The notes under the pieces: generated by a model
The model's database searches: none
What the model saw: only the letters and a program-made list of their open reading frames with translations
What the model was told of the DNA's origin: nothing
Translations under genes and position numbers: made by a program
In this document: positions 1 to 4,778 of the stretch, piece by piece
Layout of the letters: each line of letters begins with the position of its first letter
Position numbering within the stretch: the stretch's first letter is position 1
Assembly (NCBI RefSeq): GCF_002285285.1
Contig: NZ_NSJF01000003.1
Location: 124,001-188,000, forward strand
Direction of reading: 5' to 3'
From: Vandammella animalimorsus
Lineage (GTDB): Bacteria; Pseudomonadota; Gammaproteobacteria; Burkholderiales; Burkholderiaceae_C
Length of the DNA: 64,000 nt

Positions 1-141
1 CTGCACCGACAATTGCCCGCCGGCCGCCTCGGCAGGCGCAAAGCGCCTGGGCGCATGTGCATAGCGCAGGCCATACCAAGCCTGGACGTCCACGCCATCG
101 ACCCGGGCCTGGGATGAGGGGAAAGCCACGACCGTGCGCAT
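1..141 (-). CDS. Carboxylesterase type B family protein, N-terminal fragment
   Basis: The first 47 residues of a protein that leaves the window at base 1. The fragment reads MRTVVAFPSSQARVDGV, then WYGLRYAHAP and RRFAPAEAA. This matches the start of type-B carboxylesterases (para-nitrobenzyl esterase family), where a short strand leads into a GIPYA-x-PP-x-G-x-RF-x-P signature. Those enzymes hydrolyse carboxylic esters with a Ser-Glu-His triad, but all catalytic residues lie outside the window. The ATG is only 3 bases after the stop of the monooxygenase gene, so the two are probably co-transcribed and this would be the last visible gene of the catabolic group. Family assignment rests on a short segment. 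Confidence 0.6.
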   Translation of the reverse strand, partial: MRTVVAFPSSQARVDGVDVQAWYGLRYAHAPRRFAPAEAAGGQLSVQ

Positions 142-144
142 CGT

Positions 145-1383
145 TTACAGCTTCAATGAAATATAGGGCGTGCCCGTCAGCGCATTGCCGTGCAGCTCAT
201 ACCCCATCGGGGCAGTGATGGAGGCATGGCGGGTGCCCGTATTGATGTCACGCCACATGCGGCCCAGCAGACTGTTCTCGGCAAAAGCGGCTGTGCCATG
301 CAACCAGCACAAATCGTTGACGGCATCGACCAATTCATGTCCAGCATGGCCAATGCCTCCCCGATGCGCGGCCCGGTATTCCAGCGGAATGGGGACGACG
401 CCGCACGCGGCCGCATCAATCGCATCGGCCGCGCGCTCCAGCAGCAGGCGCGCGCCATCCACCTTGGCACTGACCATGCCCAGGTTTTGCACAAAGGCCC
501 CCGAGTCGATTTGCCGTTTGTAGTGGGTATAGGTGATGCCACGCTTGCCAGCCAGCTCGACGACGTGATCGAGCGCAGCATAGGCAGCGCCCAGCGAGGG
601 GGCCTGGATCGTGGTGGACATGGTCAGATGCGGTGTCAGCCGACGCCCGAAGGTCGCCGAGCCATCCTGCTCCATTCCGGGGCCCATCAATTGCTCAAAG
701 GTGATGACCCGATCTCTGGGCACCCAGAGGTTTTCGGTCGCCATGGTGTTGGAGCCCGAGCCGCGCATGCCGATCGTGAACCAGGTGTCTTCCAGCCTGT
801 ATTCGCTGCGGTGCATCAGCACAAAGCCCACCTGCGGCACAGTCTGGTTCGCTGGTGCCGCCTCGGAATCCTGGATGAACAGAATGCCCAGCGCCCACTC
901 GGCATGGCTGCTGTTGGAGGCAAATGGCCACTTGCCGGTAATACGCCAGCCATCACCATCTGGCGTGGCCGTGCCCTGTGGTTGCGCAAAGATGGAGGCT
1001 GCGCGAATCGGCCCATTGGCAAAGACCTCGTCGAGCACGGCATCGCCAAAGCGATTGGCCAGCATGACCGAGCCGTTGGAGATGACTACGCACCAGGCAG
1101 CCGCAGGATCGTAATAGGCCACCGTCCTGGCCACATCCAGCAGCATGCGCGCCCCGCCCTCGTAGCCACCATAGCGCTTGAGCGCAGAAATGCGCCACAC
1201 ATCGGCCTGCTCCAGCGCCTCGACGCTGGCCAGGGGCAAATCCCGCTCGCGATCGGCAACCACTGCCTGCTCTCGCAGTCGCGCTCCGACCTGATGCACA
1301 CGCTCAATCAGCTCTGCCGTCGCGTCGGGCACAGGCGCCTGGGTAACAGTCAGGCGTTGATGGGTTGCAGTCACATCAGTCAT
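145..1383 (-). CDS. Acyl-CoA-dehydrogenase-fold flavin-dependent monooxygenase (oxygenase component)
   Basis: A 412-residue protein of the acyl-CoA dehydrogenase superfamily, of the type with a C-terminal Acyl-CoA_dh_2 domain. That branch includes FMN/FAD two-component hydroxylases such as HsaA, DszC and NcnH, which take reduced flavin from a separate reductase and hydroxylate aromatic substrates. Visible signatures are the central strand segments (ASIFAQPQGTA, WRITGKWPFASNSSHAEW) and the GMRGSGSNT turn near residue 205. The ATG at 1383 is preceded by AAGGAGAGG; longer upstream frames lack a ribosome site. A flavin reductase gene lies 1.4 kb upstream on the same strand, which favours a two-component monooxygenase over a true acyl-CoA dehydrogenase. 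The substrate is unknown; a pyridine- or phenol-type ring is inferred from the NicX-like neighbour. Confidence 0.75.
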   Translation of the reverse strand: MTDVTATHQRLTVTQAPVPDATAELIERVHQVGARLREQAVVADRERDLPLASVEALEQADVWRISALKRYGGYEGGARMLLDVARTVAYYDPAAAWCVVISNGSVMLANRFGDAVLDEVFANGPIRAASIFAQPQGTATPDGDGWRITGKWPFASNSSHAEWALGILFIQDSEAAPANQTVPQVGFVLMHRSEYRLEDTWFTIGMRGSGSNTMATENLWVPRDRVITFEQLMGPGMEQDGSATFGRRLTPHLTMSTTIQAPSLGAAYAALDHVVELAGKRGITYTHYKRQIDSGAFVQNLGMVSAKVDGARLLLERAADAIDAAACGVVPIPLEYRAAHRGGIGHAGHELVDAVNDLCWLHGTAAFAENSLLGRMWRDINTGTRHASITAPMGYELHGNALTGTPYISLKL

Positions 1384-1712
1384 GGCCTCTCCTTCCTTGT
1401 CAATCATCTTCAATCGAATCTCGCGAGAACAGGCCCTGGGGATGCTCTGCACGAATCGCCGCGTCGTGTGCATTTGCGAATTCGGGCAGCCCGCTTCGTG
1501 ACTTCATCCTCGCAATGGCCGAGGCCGTTGCTGCGCCTCGCGCCTCGCGCCTCGCGCTCCATCCCGAACCGCAACGCACACTGGCCGCTGATTCATGCAG
1601 AGCACCCCCTGTGTGTTGTCCCGCAGGCGCCTGCCCACAATCGAACCGATGGCTTTCGCGTCGGGGCAAGGCGCAGTTTGATGTGCAGGCATTTGCAGCA
1701 GACAGCAGCACA
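1384..1712. other. 329-base spacer between the monooxygenase and NicX-like genes
   Basis: No gene is recognised here. On the minus strand one frame stays open to a stop at 1400-1402, but its translation resembles no family I know. The stretch contains a heptamer repeat (1533-1553) and the good ribosome site of the monooxygenase gene at its left end. It may hold a promoter or be the remains of a lost gene. Confidence 0.4.
1533..1553. repeat. Tandem heptamer GCGCCTC x3
   Basis: Three exact consecutive copies of GCGCCTC followed by a partial fourth (GCGCT). The array lies in the non-coding spacer, so copy-number change would not affect a protein. Confidence 0.8.
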
Positions 1713-2759
1713 CTAGGCCAATACCCCTTGCAGCACACCTTCGCGCACCACCTCTTGCCCGTCCAGGCTCACCGTGCAATTGCGCATGGGGTAATCGAAG
1801 TGGCAGGACGTAAAGCGCCCAGCGGCCGGATTGGCTCCGGTGGAGATCAGAAAATTACCGGCAAAGGCGCGCAGTTCCGTACCGTTCGTATCGCGCTTGT
1901 CATACATCACCAATGCATCCCAACGCGCCGCTGGCGCCATGCCCCAACCCACGTGGCTGATAGCATAGGCATCACGACCTTCCCAACTGCTGTAGTACGA
2001 GCACAGCAATTGCGCGTCCAGTCCATCGCCCTCTATGGCAACGACGAAGTCGTTCTCGATGCGCAGCGTCACCGGCGCCTCCAGATAGCGCTTGAAGGTC
2101 AGATTCACATCCCCACAATCGAGCACCAGCGTGCCGTTGACGCTGCCATTGCTGGGATAGCAAATGCACAGGCCTGCAGGCCAATAGCCAAAACTGCCTG
2201 GACGATCCGCAATGCCGGCGCTGCCCCGGCCAGGCACCTGTGTCAAGTCCACCGTCAGATCCGTGCCGGCACGGGATGTGACGCGCATGGTGCGTGCATC
2301 GGTAATCATCTGCGCGCCCAGCTGGCATTTCTCATGCACCACGGGACAAGGCTTGAGCCGCTCCAGAATCTCCGGGTGCTCGTTGCTGATCATCATGATG
2401 CGCGCGCCCCTGGCCAGCAAAGCCGTGCGCTCCACCGCATGCAGCAAACCCTCCACCGTGCAATCGACGATGAAGTCACTGGAAGACAAGGCCGCAATGA
2501 CCGGCTCCAGACCCTCGATGGCCAGTGAGGTGCCCGTGGAGCGCAACGGCGCCGCCTCCTTCAGCCGCGGCGAGGGCAAGCGGACATGAAACACCTTCGC
2601 CCCCATTTGCTCAAGCGCCAGCTCAGCCAGCTCCACCAACACCGAGCGCGACTGCGACTCCGACAAAATTGCCGCCACCTCGCCGCGCCGAACTTTGCAC
2701 AAACCGAACACCTGCACAAAGTCGGCAACCCATTTGCCTTCCACACGCTCGATCAACAT
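1713..2759 (-). CDS. NicX-like 2,5-dihydroxypyridine 5,6-dioxygenase family protein
   Basis: A 348-residue protein closely resembling Pseudomonas NicX (about 350 residues), the Fe(II) enzyme that opens 2,5-dihydroxypyridine to N-formylmaleamate in nicotinate catabolism. The fold is shared with M29 aminopeptidases. The three metal ligands of NicX (His265, His318, Asp320) have clear counterparts at His269 in SHVGWG and at His320 and Asp322 in SCHFDYPMRNC. The NFLISTG segment (302-308) and GTLVLDCGD (209-217) are also family-like. The ATG at 2759 follows GAAGGGGGTG; an upstream extension in the same frame looks non-coding. It lies 59 bases after the flavin reductase and on the same strand as the monooxygenase. 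Ring cleavage of a dihydroxylated N-heterocycle is the likely role, but the exact substrate is inferred. Confidence 0.8.
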   Translation of the reverse strand: MLIERVEGKWVADFVQVFGLCKVRRGEVAAILSESQSRSVLVELAELALEQMGAKVFHVRLPSPRLKEAAPLRSTGTSLAIEGLEPVIAALSSSDFIVDCTVEGLLHAVERTALLARGARIMMISNEHPEILERLKPCPVVHEKCQLGAQMITDARTMRVTSRAGTDLTVDLTQVPGRGSAGIADRPGSFGYWPAGLCICYPSNGSVNGTLVLDCGDVNLTFKRYLEAPVTLRIENDFVVAIEGDGLDAQLLCSYYSSWEGRDAYAISHVGWGMAPAARWDALVMYDKRDTNGTELRAFAGNFLISTGANPAAGRFTSCHFDYPMRNCTVSLDGQEVVREGVLQGVLA

Positions 2760-2818
2760 CACACACCCCCTTCGCCGTCCCTGGCCTCGATAGCAAAAAC
2801 AATCGGCAGACCCACCCA

Positions 2819-3349
2819 TTAAGGCGCACCACCCGCACAAGACGCCTGCTGCACCGGTGGCATCAAATGGGTGAATCGAGAGCAGTGAAACACCAGCGGA
2901 TCCACCGCTTCATCAATGCGAAAGTCGTGCACCAGCAGCTGCACGGCATCGTGGTCCCCCGCATCGTGCAAGGCATGCACGCTGCAATCGAACCAGACCG
3001 AAGCCCCTTCGATCCGCACAGCCCCCATCGGAGTCTCCCGCGTTGGCACTCCGCAAAACCGCACCTCCTTGTCGCGACAGGCCAACTGCCGGCAAATGGC
3101 CGCATGCTTGGCCCCCAGGATGGACACGCCCAACCGAGGAGCTCGAACAAGCACCCTCCAGGTCGATGAGCCCTTTTGCACAAAAACACCAGCCAACGGA
3201 GGATCCAATGAGACCCCCACCGTGAAGCTCGATGCGACCAGCACCTGCAAGCGCCCCTCGCACCGTGCCGCAATGGCCGCCACTCCCGAAGGAAAGCGGC
3301 TGAACGCATCTCGCACCCGCTTGCCATCAAGCATCACCGACTTGCACAT
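2819..3349 (-). CDS. Flavin reductase-like (FMN-binding split barrel) protein
   Basis: A 176-residue protein of the flavin reductase-like family. It shows AFSRFPSGVAAIAA near the N-terminus, a VASSFTVGVSLDPPLAGVFV strand pair that normally contacts flavin, and LGVSILGAKHAAIC later on. Such proteins reduce FMN or FAD with NAD(P)H and hand the reduced flavin to a partner oxygenase. The partner is probably the monooxygenase at 145-1383. Several in-frame starts exist; the ATG at 3349 was chosen because GGAAGGGG lies upstream at a usable distance, and the ATG at 3334 is a possible alternative. It is the first gene of the leftward group, divergent from the Dabb gene. Confidence 0.75.
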   Translation of the reverse strand: MCKSVMLDGKRVRDAFSRFPSGVAAIAARCEGRLQVLVASSFTVGVSLDPPLAGVFVQKGSSTWRVLVRAPRLGVSILGAKHAAICRQLACRDKEVRFCGVPTRETPMGAVRIEGASVWFDCSVHALHDAGDHDAVQLLVHDFRIDEAVDPLVFHCSRFTHLMPPVQQASCAGGAP

Positions 3350-3668
3350 CTCCCCCACCCCTTCCATCAGACACATCCCCAACATCCATACATTCATGAC
3401 GATCGAAAGATTAATGCAATAAGCAGATACGCAAAACAGGGGTTAACACCTAACTCCCCATGCGCCAAAGATATCAACATCAACCTAAGAATTGGAACAG
3501 CGTCCGCTCCGATCAGAGAGACGCCTTTTTGGTCTTTGGCAAAGAATGTCTTCCAACGCTGACGATCGCAACAATATCGATGAACACATTTTTTTCTGCA
3601 TCATGCAGACAATCCCAAGGCGACAAGCCCTCCTCTGTAATGTCGCCGCCGCTACAAGGAGATCCCCG
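3350..3668. promoter_or_regulatory. Divergent control region between flavin reductase and Dabb genes
   Basis: A relatively AT-rich 319-base spacer with no convincing gene. It holds an interrupted palindrome at 3439-3459 (GGGGTTA, then TAACTCCCC) that could be an operator. On the plus strand, at 3500-3530, a stem (GCGTC/GACGC with an inner CTC/GAG pairing) is followed by five T residues, like a weak terminator or attenuator ahead of the Dabb gene. No textbook -35/-10 pair stands out on either strand. Confidence 0.4.
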
Positions 3669-3986
3669 ATGCAACTACACATCGTCCTGATGGCCTTCCA
3701 CGCCACTCCATCCGACGAGCTGCAGCAACACATCGACACTGCATTCCGGCGCATGCCCGCCCTTTGCGAAGGCCTGCTTCGCTATGAATTGGTGAAAAAC
3801 CATTCCTCCACCTCCGCCGAGTACAGCCATGCCCTGCTTTCCGTCTTTGCCAGCCCTGGCCACCTCAGCGCCTATCGCGTCAGCCCTGAACACGATGCCT
3901 TGATGCAACTGCTCAAGCCCCATGTCCGGGAAATCGTCGTGCTCGACACTCCCTGGCCCGCCAGCCTGTCCACACTGCCCGCCTGA
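3669..3986 (+). CDS. Dabb (stress-responsive alpha/beta barrel) domain protein
   Basis: A 105-residue single-domain protein. It begins MQLHIVLMAF and continues with the pattern of the Dabb family: a charged helix, a strand (EGLLRYELVKNHS), the YSHALLSVFAS strand, and the H-x-A-x-x-x-L-L-K-P helix (HDALMQLLKPHV) leading to VVLDT. Dabb proteins form dimeric ferredoxin-like barrels and occur in stress and catabolic operons, sometimes as small enzymes. The ATG at 3669 is preceded by AAGGAG; the frame is open further upstream but without a ribosome site. It is divergent from the catabolic genes and probably controlled from the same spacer. The molecular role is not known. Confidence 0.75.
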   Translation: MQLHIVLMAFHATPSDELQQHIDTAFRRMPALCEGLLRYELVKNHSSTSAEYSHALLSVFASPGHLSAYRVSPEHDALMQLLKPHVREIVVLDTPWPASLSTLPA

Positions 3987-4190
3987 AGCCAGGGTCGTTC
4001 GGTGCCTGGCCCATGGCCTCAGTCGGCGGCAATAGGCGCGCGCCTGCGCTCTTGGCAAGCCTAAACCCTTGATGAACGCGGGCTTCAGGCTTGATTTAAA
4101 GGTCACGGCCTATCATCGGTTCTTTATGCGCTGCCTGGGCTCCGGCTTGGGTGCCACGCTCTCATTCAACATACTTTGGAGGATTTCCCC

Positions 4191-4778
4191 ATGAACCGTG
4201 CATTCCTGCTGGCGTTTCTGGTTGGTCTTGGCGCTACTGCCTGTGGCGGCGGCTCGGACAGCCCTGCTCCCGCTCCGGCCCCTGCTCCGGCACCGGCGCC
4301 CACACCTGCGCCGACGCCTGCGCCCACCCCGGCACCGACACCTGCGCCAGCGCCAGGCCCGCAGCAGCCTGCGGCAGCTTTGTTCGACTACTCGGGCACC
4401 TGGAGGGAGCACGATGAACGCTGCGAGTGGAGCAGCGCCGGTTACTACAAATGGGATGTGGATGTGGTGACGAAGAAGTCCGCCACCTTCTTCGAGCGCC
4501 AGGAACACACCCTGGCCTACAACAACCCACAGTGCACGGGCACGGTGTTGCACACCATCCCGAAAGAGGTGGAATACCTGAGCGTAGTGGGCCAGGGCCA
4601 GCTGGCCGATGGCACGCGCGTGGACTTGATCGACGAGAAGCGCCACCCCAATGGCCCGGTGGTCGAGAAGTGCGTGGCCGTCATTCAGGATGGCAAGCTG
4701 TTCTCCGAGTGCCATGATGCGCCTCGTGGTTACCCCACGTATGTGGAGCGCCATGAGTGGGACGTGCGTCTGCCCTGA
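4191..4778 (+). CDS. Putative lipoprotein with Pro-Ala linker
   Basis: A 195-residue exported protein of unknown function. Residues 1-17 form a short signal peptide ending in GATA before Cys18, consistent with signal peptidase II processing and lipid attachment. A Gly/Ser tail and a long Pro-Ala / Pro-Thr linker (about residues 25-57) separate the anchor from a C-terminal domain of about 135 residues. That domain starts LFDYSGTWREHDERCEW and contains several Trp and four Cys residues, so disulfides are possible. The start at 4191 follows GGAGG. It stands alone, convergent with murA, with a bidirectional terminator between them. I do not recognise the globular domain. Confidence 0.7.
   Translation: MNRAFLLAFLVGLGATACGGGSDSPAPAPAPAPAPAPTPAPTPAPTPAPTPAPAPGPQQPAAALFDYSGTWREHDERCEWSSAGYYKWDVDVVTKKSATFFERQEHTLAYNNPQCTGTVLHTIPKEVEYLSVVGQGQLADGTRVDLIDEKRHPNGPVVEKCVAVIQDGKLFSECHDAPRGYPTYVERHEWDVRLP
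4263..4361 (+). repeat. Pro-Ala/Pro-Thr codon repeat inside the lipoprotein gene
   Basis: Imperfect six-base repeats (CCxGCx and CCxACx) encode alternating Pro-Ala and Pro-Thr. The stretch acts as an extended linker and could vary in length by slippage. Confidence 0.7.

Follow-up and report, generated by a model that had tools for sequence, protein, structure and literature searches.

A predicted pathway linking a XiaF-type flavin monooxygenase to a NicX-like ring-cleavage enzyme in Vandammella animalimorsus

Which ring would a NicX-like dioxygenase open when the genes beside it encode an acyl-CoA-dehydrogenase-fold (AcdH-fold) oxygenase and a flavin reductase? We addressed this question in a 64,000-nt stretch of the 3.08-Mb, 13-contig genome of Vandammella animalimorsus (the window; contig NZ_NSJF01000003.1, here C7:124001-188000), and we also read the sequence to the left of its first base. 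Genes in the loci were called from open frames and similarity, without annotation, and the likely starts of the window genes were chosen from homologue lengths and ribosome-binding sites. One run on the minus strand (C7:~120680-127350) encodes, from 5′ to 3′, the flavin reductase, the NicX-like protein, the oxygenase, a type-B esterase, a TctC receptor and a PaaX-type regulator. An earlier note on this DNA had listed reductase, NicX homologue, oxygenase, esterase and a divergent Dabb protein as one compact cluster; all five genes are present, with the N-terminal 47 residues of the esterase inside the window. The best reading of the operon, which we hold with somewhat better than even confidence, is that a XiaF-type pair hydroxylates a ring and the NicX-type enzyme then opens it. 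Genomic context supports a hydroxylase that feeds a NicX-type ring opener, but it does not support 2,5-dihydroxypyridine as the intermediate.

The NicX-like gene (window positions 2759-1713, minus strand) encodes a predicted non-heme Fe(II) ring-cleavage dioxygenase, assigned by homology and a structural model. At E ≤ 1e-3, its protein matches neither the M29 profile nor any other Pfam or NCBIfam family, and a NicX-type Azospirillum protein is likewise without an NCBIfam match (E ≤ 1e-5). Searched against the PDB with phmmer, the protein finds NicX of Pseudomonas putida KT2440 (7cn3; E = 2.1e-59). The model (predicted local distance difference test score 91.2, predicted template modelling score 0.88) fits 7cn3 with a Z-score of 45.4 and a root-mean-square deviation of 2.0 over 341 aligned residues, at 35% identity. 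The M29 aminopeptidases AmpT and PepS, which share a related fold, reach Z-scores of 20-21 (AmpT 21.1). These comparisons disfavour an assignment as M29 peptidase, a grouping that the earlier note had named as one that would refute its reading.

In the NicX structural study (PMC7910607), the iron is held by His265, Ser302, His318 and Asp320, the substrate is contacted by His105, Glu177 and His189, and Glu177 binds both N1 and O1 of 2,5-dihydroxypyridine; the same study gives a remaining activity of 2.7% for the E177A variant and 6.9% for H189A. The three metal ligands previously described as intact are indeed kept in the window protein (H296, H347 and D349, equivalent to NicX H265, H318 and D320), as is the fourth (S333, equivalent to S302). 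Among the substrate contacts, His105 is kept (H134), while Glu177 is replaced by S207 and His189 by Y219. We aligned these positions across 106 relatives of the window protein and 17 NicX-type rows (T2). All four iron ligands are conserved in 106/106 and 17/17 rows, respectively. Column 177 is Glu in none of the 106 relatives, compared to 15 of the 17 T2 rows; column 189 is His in 84, Tyr in 21 and Ser in one of the relatives, and His in 16/17 T2 rows. Column 105 is His in all 106 relatives and Phe in 15/17 T2 rows, and the His105 of P. putida is therefore not a general mark of NicX. The loss of Glu177 argues against 2,5-dihydroxypyridine being held in the manner of NicX, although a different substrate is not thereby proven.

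The 106 relatives form a Glu177-less clade. Its loci are the window, 21 loci from 399 genomes of the same order, four plasmid loci and the best 80 of at least 580 stretches from a genome scan; with this sampling, close relatives are over-represented, and two loci (L039 and L139) contain one identical sequence. The T2 rows are NicX itself, eight rows from L060-L067, one from L045, three from plasmids and four from Alcaligenaceae genomes. In a 124-row tree, the 106 clade rows split from NicX and the T2 rows with 99% support by the Shimodaira-Hasegawa-like approximate likelihood ratio test, the two groups being joined by long branches of which the program warns. One row was reported on the wrong side because the T2-like row from L045 was entered twice, once unlabelled. 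The phylogenetic comparison that the earlier note had proposed thus places the homologue in a clade apart from NicX. Within the clade, the window row groups with a Paenalcaligenes, two Alcaligenes and one Pusillimonas row (support 99). The surrounding branch of 27 rows (96) also includes loci partnered with FAD_binding_3 proteins and rhizobial plasmid loci. Compared with NicX (7cn3/7cup), the window protein has the same fold, the same iron ligands and His105; it differs in its Ser and Tyr substitutions, its separate clade, the absence of nicC, nicD, nicE and nicF as neighbours and its two-component oxygenase partner.

That partner (window 1383-145, minus strand; open frame to 1473) is, by sequence and modelled fold, the predicted oxygenase component of a XiaF-type two-component (group D, AcdH-fold) flavin monooxygenase. 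Its PDB matches by phmmer are XiaF (240.8 bits), HsaA (132.6), Rv3094c (~110) and C2-HpaH (71.9), together with two chains named acyl-CoA dehydrogenase (ACAD) type 2 (50.5 bits), of which one bears the title monooxygenase; no classical ACAD is among the matches at E ≤ 1e-3. In NCBIfam, the best match is HsaA (166.8 bits, below the cut-off of 450), and an ACAD model, FadE16, matches weakly (40.3 bits). HsaAB, the secosteroid hydroxylase, and C2-HpaH are likewise two-component group D hydroxylases with a separate flavin reductase, but they are less similar to the window enzyme than XiaF and the dioxygenase partner here is of NicX type; HsaAB works with an extradiol enzyme. A 43-row tree places the oxygenase in a group with XiaF and the orthologues from Shinella and Alcaligenaceae (support 99/95), apart from short-chain acyl-CoA dehydrogenase (SCAD) and from the ACAD-like genes of the clade loci. 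Of the ACAD-like set, 22 sequences of 380-520 aa were chosen randomly for that tree, and two oxygenase frames of L078 were excluded as too short; the program flags long branches, including that of XiaF. The oxygenase model (predicted local distance difference test score 73.3) fits XiaF with a Z-score of 46.1, HsaA with 41.0 and C2-HpaH with 40.9, compared to 35.8 for the best chain named acyl-CoA dehydrogenase. We rejected an assignment as acyl-CoA dehydrogenase on the PDB search, the tree and the fold comparison, and the tight grouping with true acyl-CoA dehydrogenases that, by the earlier note, would refute its reading is not seen.

XiaF is the indole hydroxylase of xiamycin biosynthesis (5lvu/5mr6), to which the window enzyme is 37% identical over 388 residues. 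Ten residues named in the XiaF study (PMC5481743) were compared. Seven of these are identical in the window oxygenase, including the active-site His371 and the indole-contact residues Ser121 and Phe123, and three are changed (Y144F, T146S and I237H), so that most of the flavin-pocket residues compared are retained; His371 corresponds to H416 of the 442-aa frame and is invariant in 10 aligned oxygenases. The window enzyme differs from XiaF in its setting, an apparently catabolic operon with an esterase and a ring-cleavage enzyme. As expected of a group D enzyme, a flavin reductase gene lies nearby (window ~3349-2819, minus strand; open frame to 3397), which encodes an HsaB/FerA-like protein of the Flavin_Reduct family (PF01613, 91.7 bits; NCBIfam HsaB 84 bits, below the cut-off of 230) and is the putative small partner of the oxygenase. 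The literature text found on indole and skatole pathways, which we examined as models, names no NicX-type gene.

We then asked how often the clade gene stands beside a possible hydroxylase. Within 8 kb, the 106 loci carry an alpha/beta hydrolase in 63 cases, an AMP-binding CoA ligase in 62, an ACAD-like gene in 60, a MarR regulator in 22, a XiaF/HsaA-type oxygenase in 14 and a flavin adenine dinucleotide (FAD) monooxygenase of FAD_binding_3 type in 13. A flavin reductase belonging to one sequence cluster, to which the window's reductase does not belong, is found in 24. At least one of the ACAD-like, XiaF/HsaA-type or FAD_binding_3-type sets lies within 8 kb in 81/106 loci, with a median gap of 770 bases. 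The same three sets were found in none of 11 T2 loci (L060-L067 and L160-L162) at E ≤ 1e-8, while a NicX search of the same database, as a positive control, found 11/11; the T2 loci carry their own FAD monooxygenases, which match the three sets weakly. Two of these nicotinate-type clusters, from Azospirillum (L160) and Pseudomonas BYT-5 (L161), resemble the window in that genes for a NicX-family dioxygenase, an alpha/beta hydrolase and a flavin hydroxylase lie close together. They differ in their FAD-dependent hydroxylases (in L161 also a molybdopterin-dependent one) and in their amidase-type and Asp/Glu racemase genes, none of which occurs in the window cluster. The coupling of reductase and AcdH-fold oxygenase to a NicX homologue, proposed earlier, is thus upheld by context, and the arrangement differs from the NicC type.

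The partners belong to several separate lineages, namely XiaF-type, Rv3094c-type, a third group D line, ACAD-like (60 loci) and FAD_binding_3 (13 loci). The clade-linked XiaF/HsaA-type oxygenases fall in three places of the oxygenase tree: those of Alcaligenaceae with XiaF, those of Acidimicrobiia with Rv3094c and that of Bradyrhizobium as the third group D line; in Bradyrhizobium, ~7 kb separate the oxygenase from the NicX gene, to which an ACAD-like gene lies closer. The best solved matches of the ACAD-like partners (5gj7/5z8t, named ACAD type 2, one titled a monooxygenase) are about level with SCAD in score, and these partners form a clade of their own. Of the 21 loci with Tyr at column 189, 12 have a FAD_binding_3-type partner, four have the Alcaligenaceae oxygenase and five lack a partner from the three sets. 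We also considered the clade's alpha/beta hydrolase as a NicD orthologue and rejected it, as the best matches to six T2 hydrolases (50-57 bits, 24-37%) show no special kinship.

Two other settings of the clade gene were observed. In Acidimicrobiia (L079:1146-6892), it stands amid two aminotransferases, an arginase-family gene and a Rv3094c-type oxygenase, families that were checked for L079, and a like arrangement is seen in L078, L087, L097 and L102. On rhizobial plasmids of Ensifer and Aminobacter (L068:9001-16729 and L069:5266-17379), it accompanies an ACAD-like gene, a glutamine-synthetase-like protein and an APC permease, and it is annotated 'peptidase M29', a name that looks wrong.

The gene set of the window recurs in three other species. 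Oxygenase, esterase, regulator, reductase and NicX-like genes are found jointly in Paenalcaligenes (L073), Alcaligenes faecalis AU14 (L074) and Alcaligenes pakistanensis (L075), at identities of 74-75%, 58-60%, 60-63%, 56-66% and 76-80%, respectively, in orders and orientations that differ from the window. Because the same genes keep together, reordered, in three other species, their co-occurrence is not chance. The Dabb gene (47%) is present in L074 and L075, two of the three genomes, L073 being an 8-kb contig. All three have a major facilitator superfamily (MFS) carrier gene in place of the window's TctC; it separates the reductase and NicX-like genes in L074 and L075 and follows the NicX-like gene in L073. 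These three genomes hold additional NicX-family genes (33-45%, some partial), compared to a single one in the window genome (E ≤ 1e-10). Among 10 genomes of the genus, eight of them at least 90% complete, the NicX homologue is found in one (E ≤ 1e-60), and an oxygenase match occurs in 2/399 family genomes (E ≤ 1e-60), namely that of the window and one other with a match at 35%. The cluster has a GC content of 62.0%, compared to 66.1% for the 94-kb region, and a third-position GC content of 0.70-0.76 in seven cluster genes and 0.75 in an adjoining Abhydrolase_3 gene, compared to 0.81-0.90 in eight flanking genes chosen by hand. The set looks horizontally acquired, and its base composition agrees mildly with import.

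We therefore favor, at the strength given above, a horizontally acquired catabolic operon for a probably nitrogen-containing aromatic compound. The reductase would supply reduced flavin, with which the XiaF-type oxygenase would hydroxylate the ring. Ring opening with O2 would then fall to the NicX-like enzyme, whose predicted mononuclear iron is bound by H296, S333, H347 and D349. The substrate of this enzyme would not be free 2,5-dihydroxypyridine, since it has lost the residue that grips the N-C-O edge of the pyridine; an N-heteroaromatic ring (a substituted pyridine) and an aminophenol-type carbocycle are both possible, and the compound probably contains nitrogen. The esterase (window 141-1, minus strand; whole gene L007:13750-15141; Pfam COesterase, 154 bits for the whole protein) may first free the substrate from an ester, or it may take the role of NicD by hydrolyzing the product of ring opening, a role that the Abhydrolase_3 protein could also fill. 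The PaaX-type protein (frame L007:11679-12722, minus strand) would keep the operon repressed in the absence of the substrate or a CoA derivative, and TctC (frame L007:12744-13793, minus strand), or the MFS carrier in Alcaligenes, would serve uptake; the true starts of both frames are possibly further in.

Several observations weigh against this pathway. About 330 nt separate the stop of the NicX-like gene from the start of the oxygenase gene, which leaves a single transcript for the whole run no more than possible. Of the 106 clade loci, 25 have no partner from the three sets, including L076 and L077, the nearest relatives after Alcaligenes and Paenalcaligenes; nine of the 25 are shorter than 12 kb, and one locus scored as partnerless, L048, has a different FAD_binding_3 gene adjoining. 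The ACAD-like partners, which account for the majority (60 loci), could be true dehydrogenases. The drop in cluster GC content is about one standard deviation of 2-kb windows, and stretches of lower GC content occur elsewhere in the region. Ring cleavage by the NicX-like protein is predicted from homology, and among open-licence papers, judged by title and the start of the abstract, we found no characterized enzyme of the Glu177-less clade or of this cluster. Finally, in Shinella PSBB067 a related oxygenase-esterase pair adjoins a cupin dioxygenase, and the clade NicX gene is 0.85 Mb away by the shorter arc of the circular replicon that carries both, so that the pair need not act with NicX.

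The Shinella arrangement leads to the alternative that survives best, which we nevertheless judge unlikely: the XiaF-type oxygenase and esterase feed a separate cupin pathway, for example by turning an anthranilate-type ester into a 5-hydroxyanthranilate-like acid, leaving the NicX-like enzyme to a side substrate or a different one. In Shinella (L072:8977-16653, one strand), the oxygenase (48%), esterase (41%) and reductase (30%) lie directly before genes for a cupin, a FAH-family hydrolase, a CN hydrolase and a maleate isomerase, and the same four genes occur in the window genome at identities of 70%, 73%, 78% and 79%, respectively. There they form a set (C7:301463-310125; L177:6461-13810 and L188:927-2126, both minus strand) with a branched-chain-type ATP-binding cassette transporter. 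The cupin matches gentisate 1,2-dioxygenase best in NCBIfam (322.6 bits), then 5-aminosalicylate dioxygenase (259.6), both below cut-off. Sets of this kind carry maleamylpyruvate through maleamate and maleate to fumarate, and by analogy the set resembles an aminogentisate-type pathway. All four genomes with the window-type gene set have the cupin and the CN hydrolase, and the window cluster and the cupin cluster may cooperate. In Aminobacter, a cupin, a FAH-family hydrolase and a CN hydrolase (the last only 35% identical to the others) lie directly before a reductase and a clade NicX gene. However, the two clusters of the window genome are 174 kb apart; the cupin sets of A. faecalis and Paenalcaligenes (L202:6598-18334 and L203:2276-9053, both minus strand) stand beside their own salicylyl/anthraniloyl-CoA-type 5-hydroxylase and thioesterase, so that a XiaF-type enzyme is not needed there; and a sister genome (G792, 77% complete) keeps the FAH-family hydrolase, CN hydrolase and isomerase at 94-95%, with the cupin, and has no NicX match. 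IorAB-like genes were also seen at the A. faecalis cupin set. As an observation in its own right, Shinella PSBB067 (L072:8561-16653) may hold a complete aminogentisate-type pathway with an oxygenase-esterase-reductase module.

A second alternative, still less probable, is that the oxygenase, as a new kind of hydroxylase for this route, yields 2,5-dihydroxypyridine or a simple derivative and that the NicX homologue acts on it as an ordinary 2,5-dihydroxypyridine 5,6-dioxygenase. It would account for the NicX fold, the four iron ligands and the retained His105, and the genome outside the cluster does hold a NicE-like maleate isomerase (C7:301463-302305), its one PF17645 gene, which shares 65-69% identity with the maleate isomerases, of Asp/Glu-racemase type, in three nicotinate-type clusters. 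The two residues whose Ala variants keep 2.7% and 6.9% of activity (PMC7910607) are nonetheless Ser and Tyr here; NicE or NicF homologues occur in 0/106 clade loci (E ≤ 1e-20); and A. faecalis, A. pakistanensis and Paenalcaligenes carry further NicX-family genes. The window cluster holds no isochorismatase-type amidase and no maleate isomerase, with one partial PF00857 match in the rest of the genome, and the genes to the left of the first base are those for the esterase, TctC, the PaaX-type regulator, the Abhydrolase_3 protein and a LysE-type exporter. The earlier remark that the usual nic genes are not visible here thus holds for nicD, nicE and nicF nearby. Its suggestion of a hydroxypyridine or a pyridine ester as the cleavage substrate fares less well, given the Ser and Tyr substitutions and the lack of local nicD, nicE and nicF genes, and the best contextual link of the oxygenase-esterase pair is to the aminogentisate-type cupin pathway of Shinella. 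That the NicX homologue is instead an aminopeptidase-like hydrolase of an amide or peptide product, as the plasmid annotation and the fold shared with AmpT and PepS might suggest, is very improbable, given the lack of an M29 Pfam match, the far better fit to NicX (45.4 versus 21.1) and a NicX Ser ligand kept in 106/106 rows.

The remaining features of the locus concern its layout. The genes from the oxygenase to the PaaX-type regulator, taken as longest open frames, overlap or lie at most 21 nt apart. The Dabb gene (stress responsive A/B barrel; window 3669-3986, plus strand; open frame from 3492) is oriented divergently from the run (Pfam Dabb, 47.9 bits), and right beside it an open frame (window 4176-4778, plus strand) has a lipoprotein-like start and a long Pro-Ala-Thr repeat stretch. 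To the left of the PaaX-type regulator, on the strand opposite to the run, lie the Abhydrolase_3 (HSL-type) hydrolase gene and, further left, that of the LysE-type exporter; a frame at L007:10575-11675 (minus strand) was rejected as a gene, being antisense to the Abhydrolase_3 gene. In the intergenic regions, we found no sigma-70-like site, compared to 1.1 expected. The 8-mer TTATTGCA (with its complement) was considered as an operator shared by the intergenic regions of three genomes and set aside as too weak, its count being reached in 20/400 shuffles.

NicX has been described (PMC7910607) as strongly specific for 2,5-dihydroxypyridine and without an obvious full-length structural homologue. 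We tentatively propose that the Glu177-less clade may be a widespread, unrecognized group of NicX-fold iron dioxygenases that open para-hydroxylated rings other than 2,5-dihydroxypyridine, perhaps aminophenol- or hydroquinone-type carbocycles or ring-carboxylated pyridines, and that unrelated flavin hydroxylases have repeatedly recruited; in the window, its member would complete a XiaF-type, ester-initiated pathway. The Alcaligenes strains named here offer concrete genes with which the substrate could be found, and the database name 'peptidase M29' is suggested to be wrong for members of the clade. The clade is the part most worth following: if the proposal is true, a large sister group of NicX (at least 580 stretches with relatives), with its iron site intact, its pyridine-gripping residue lost and its hydroxylase partners changing, would make the NicX fold a general ring opener.

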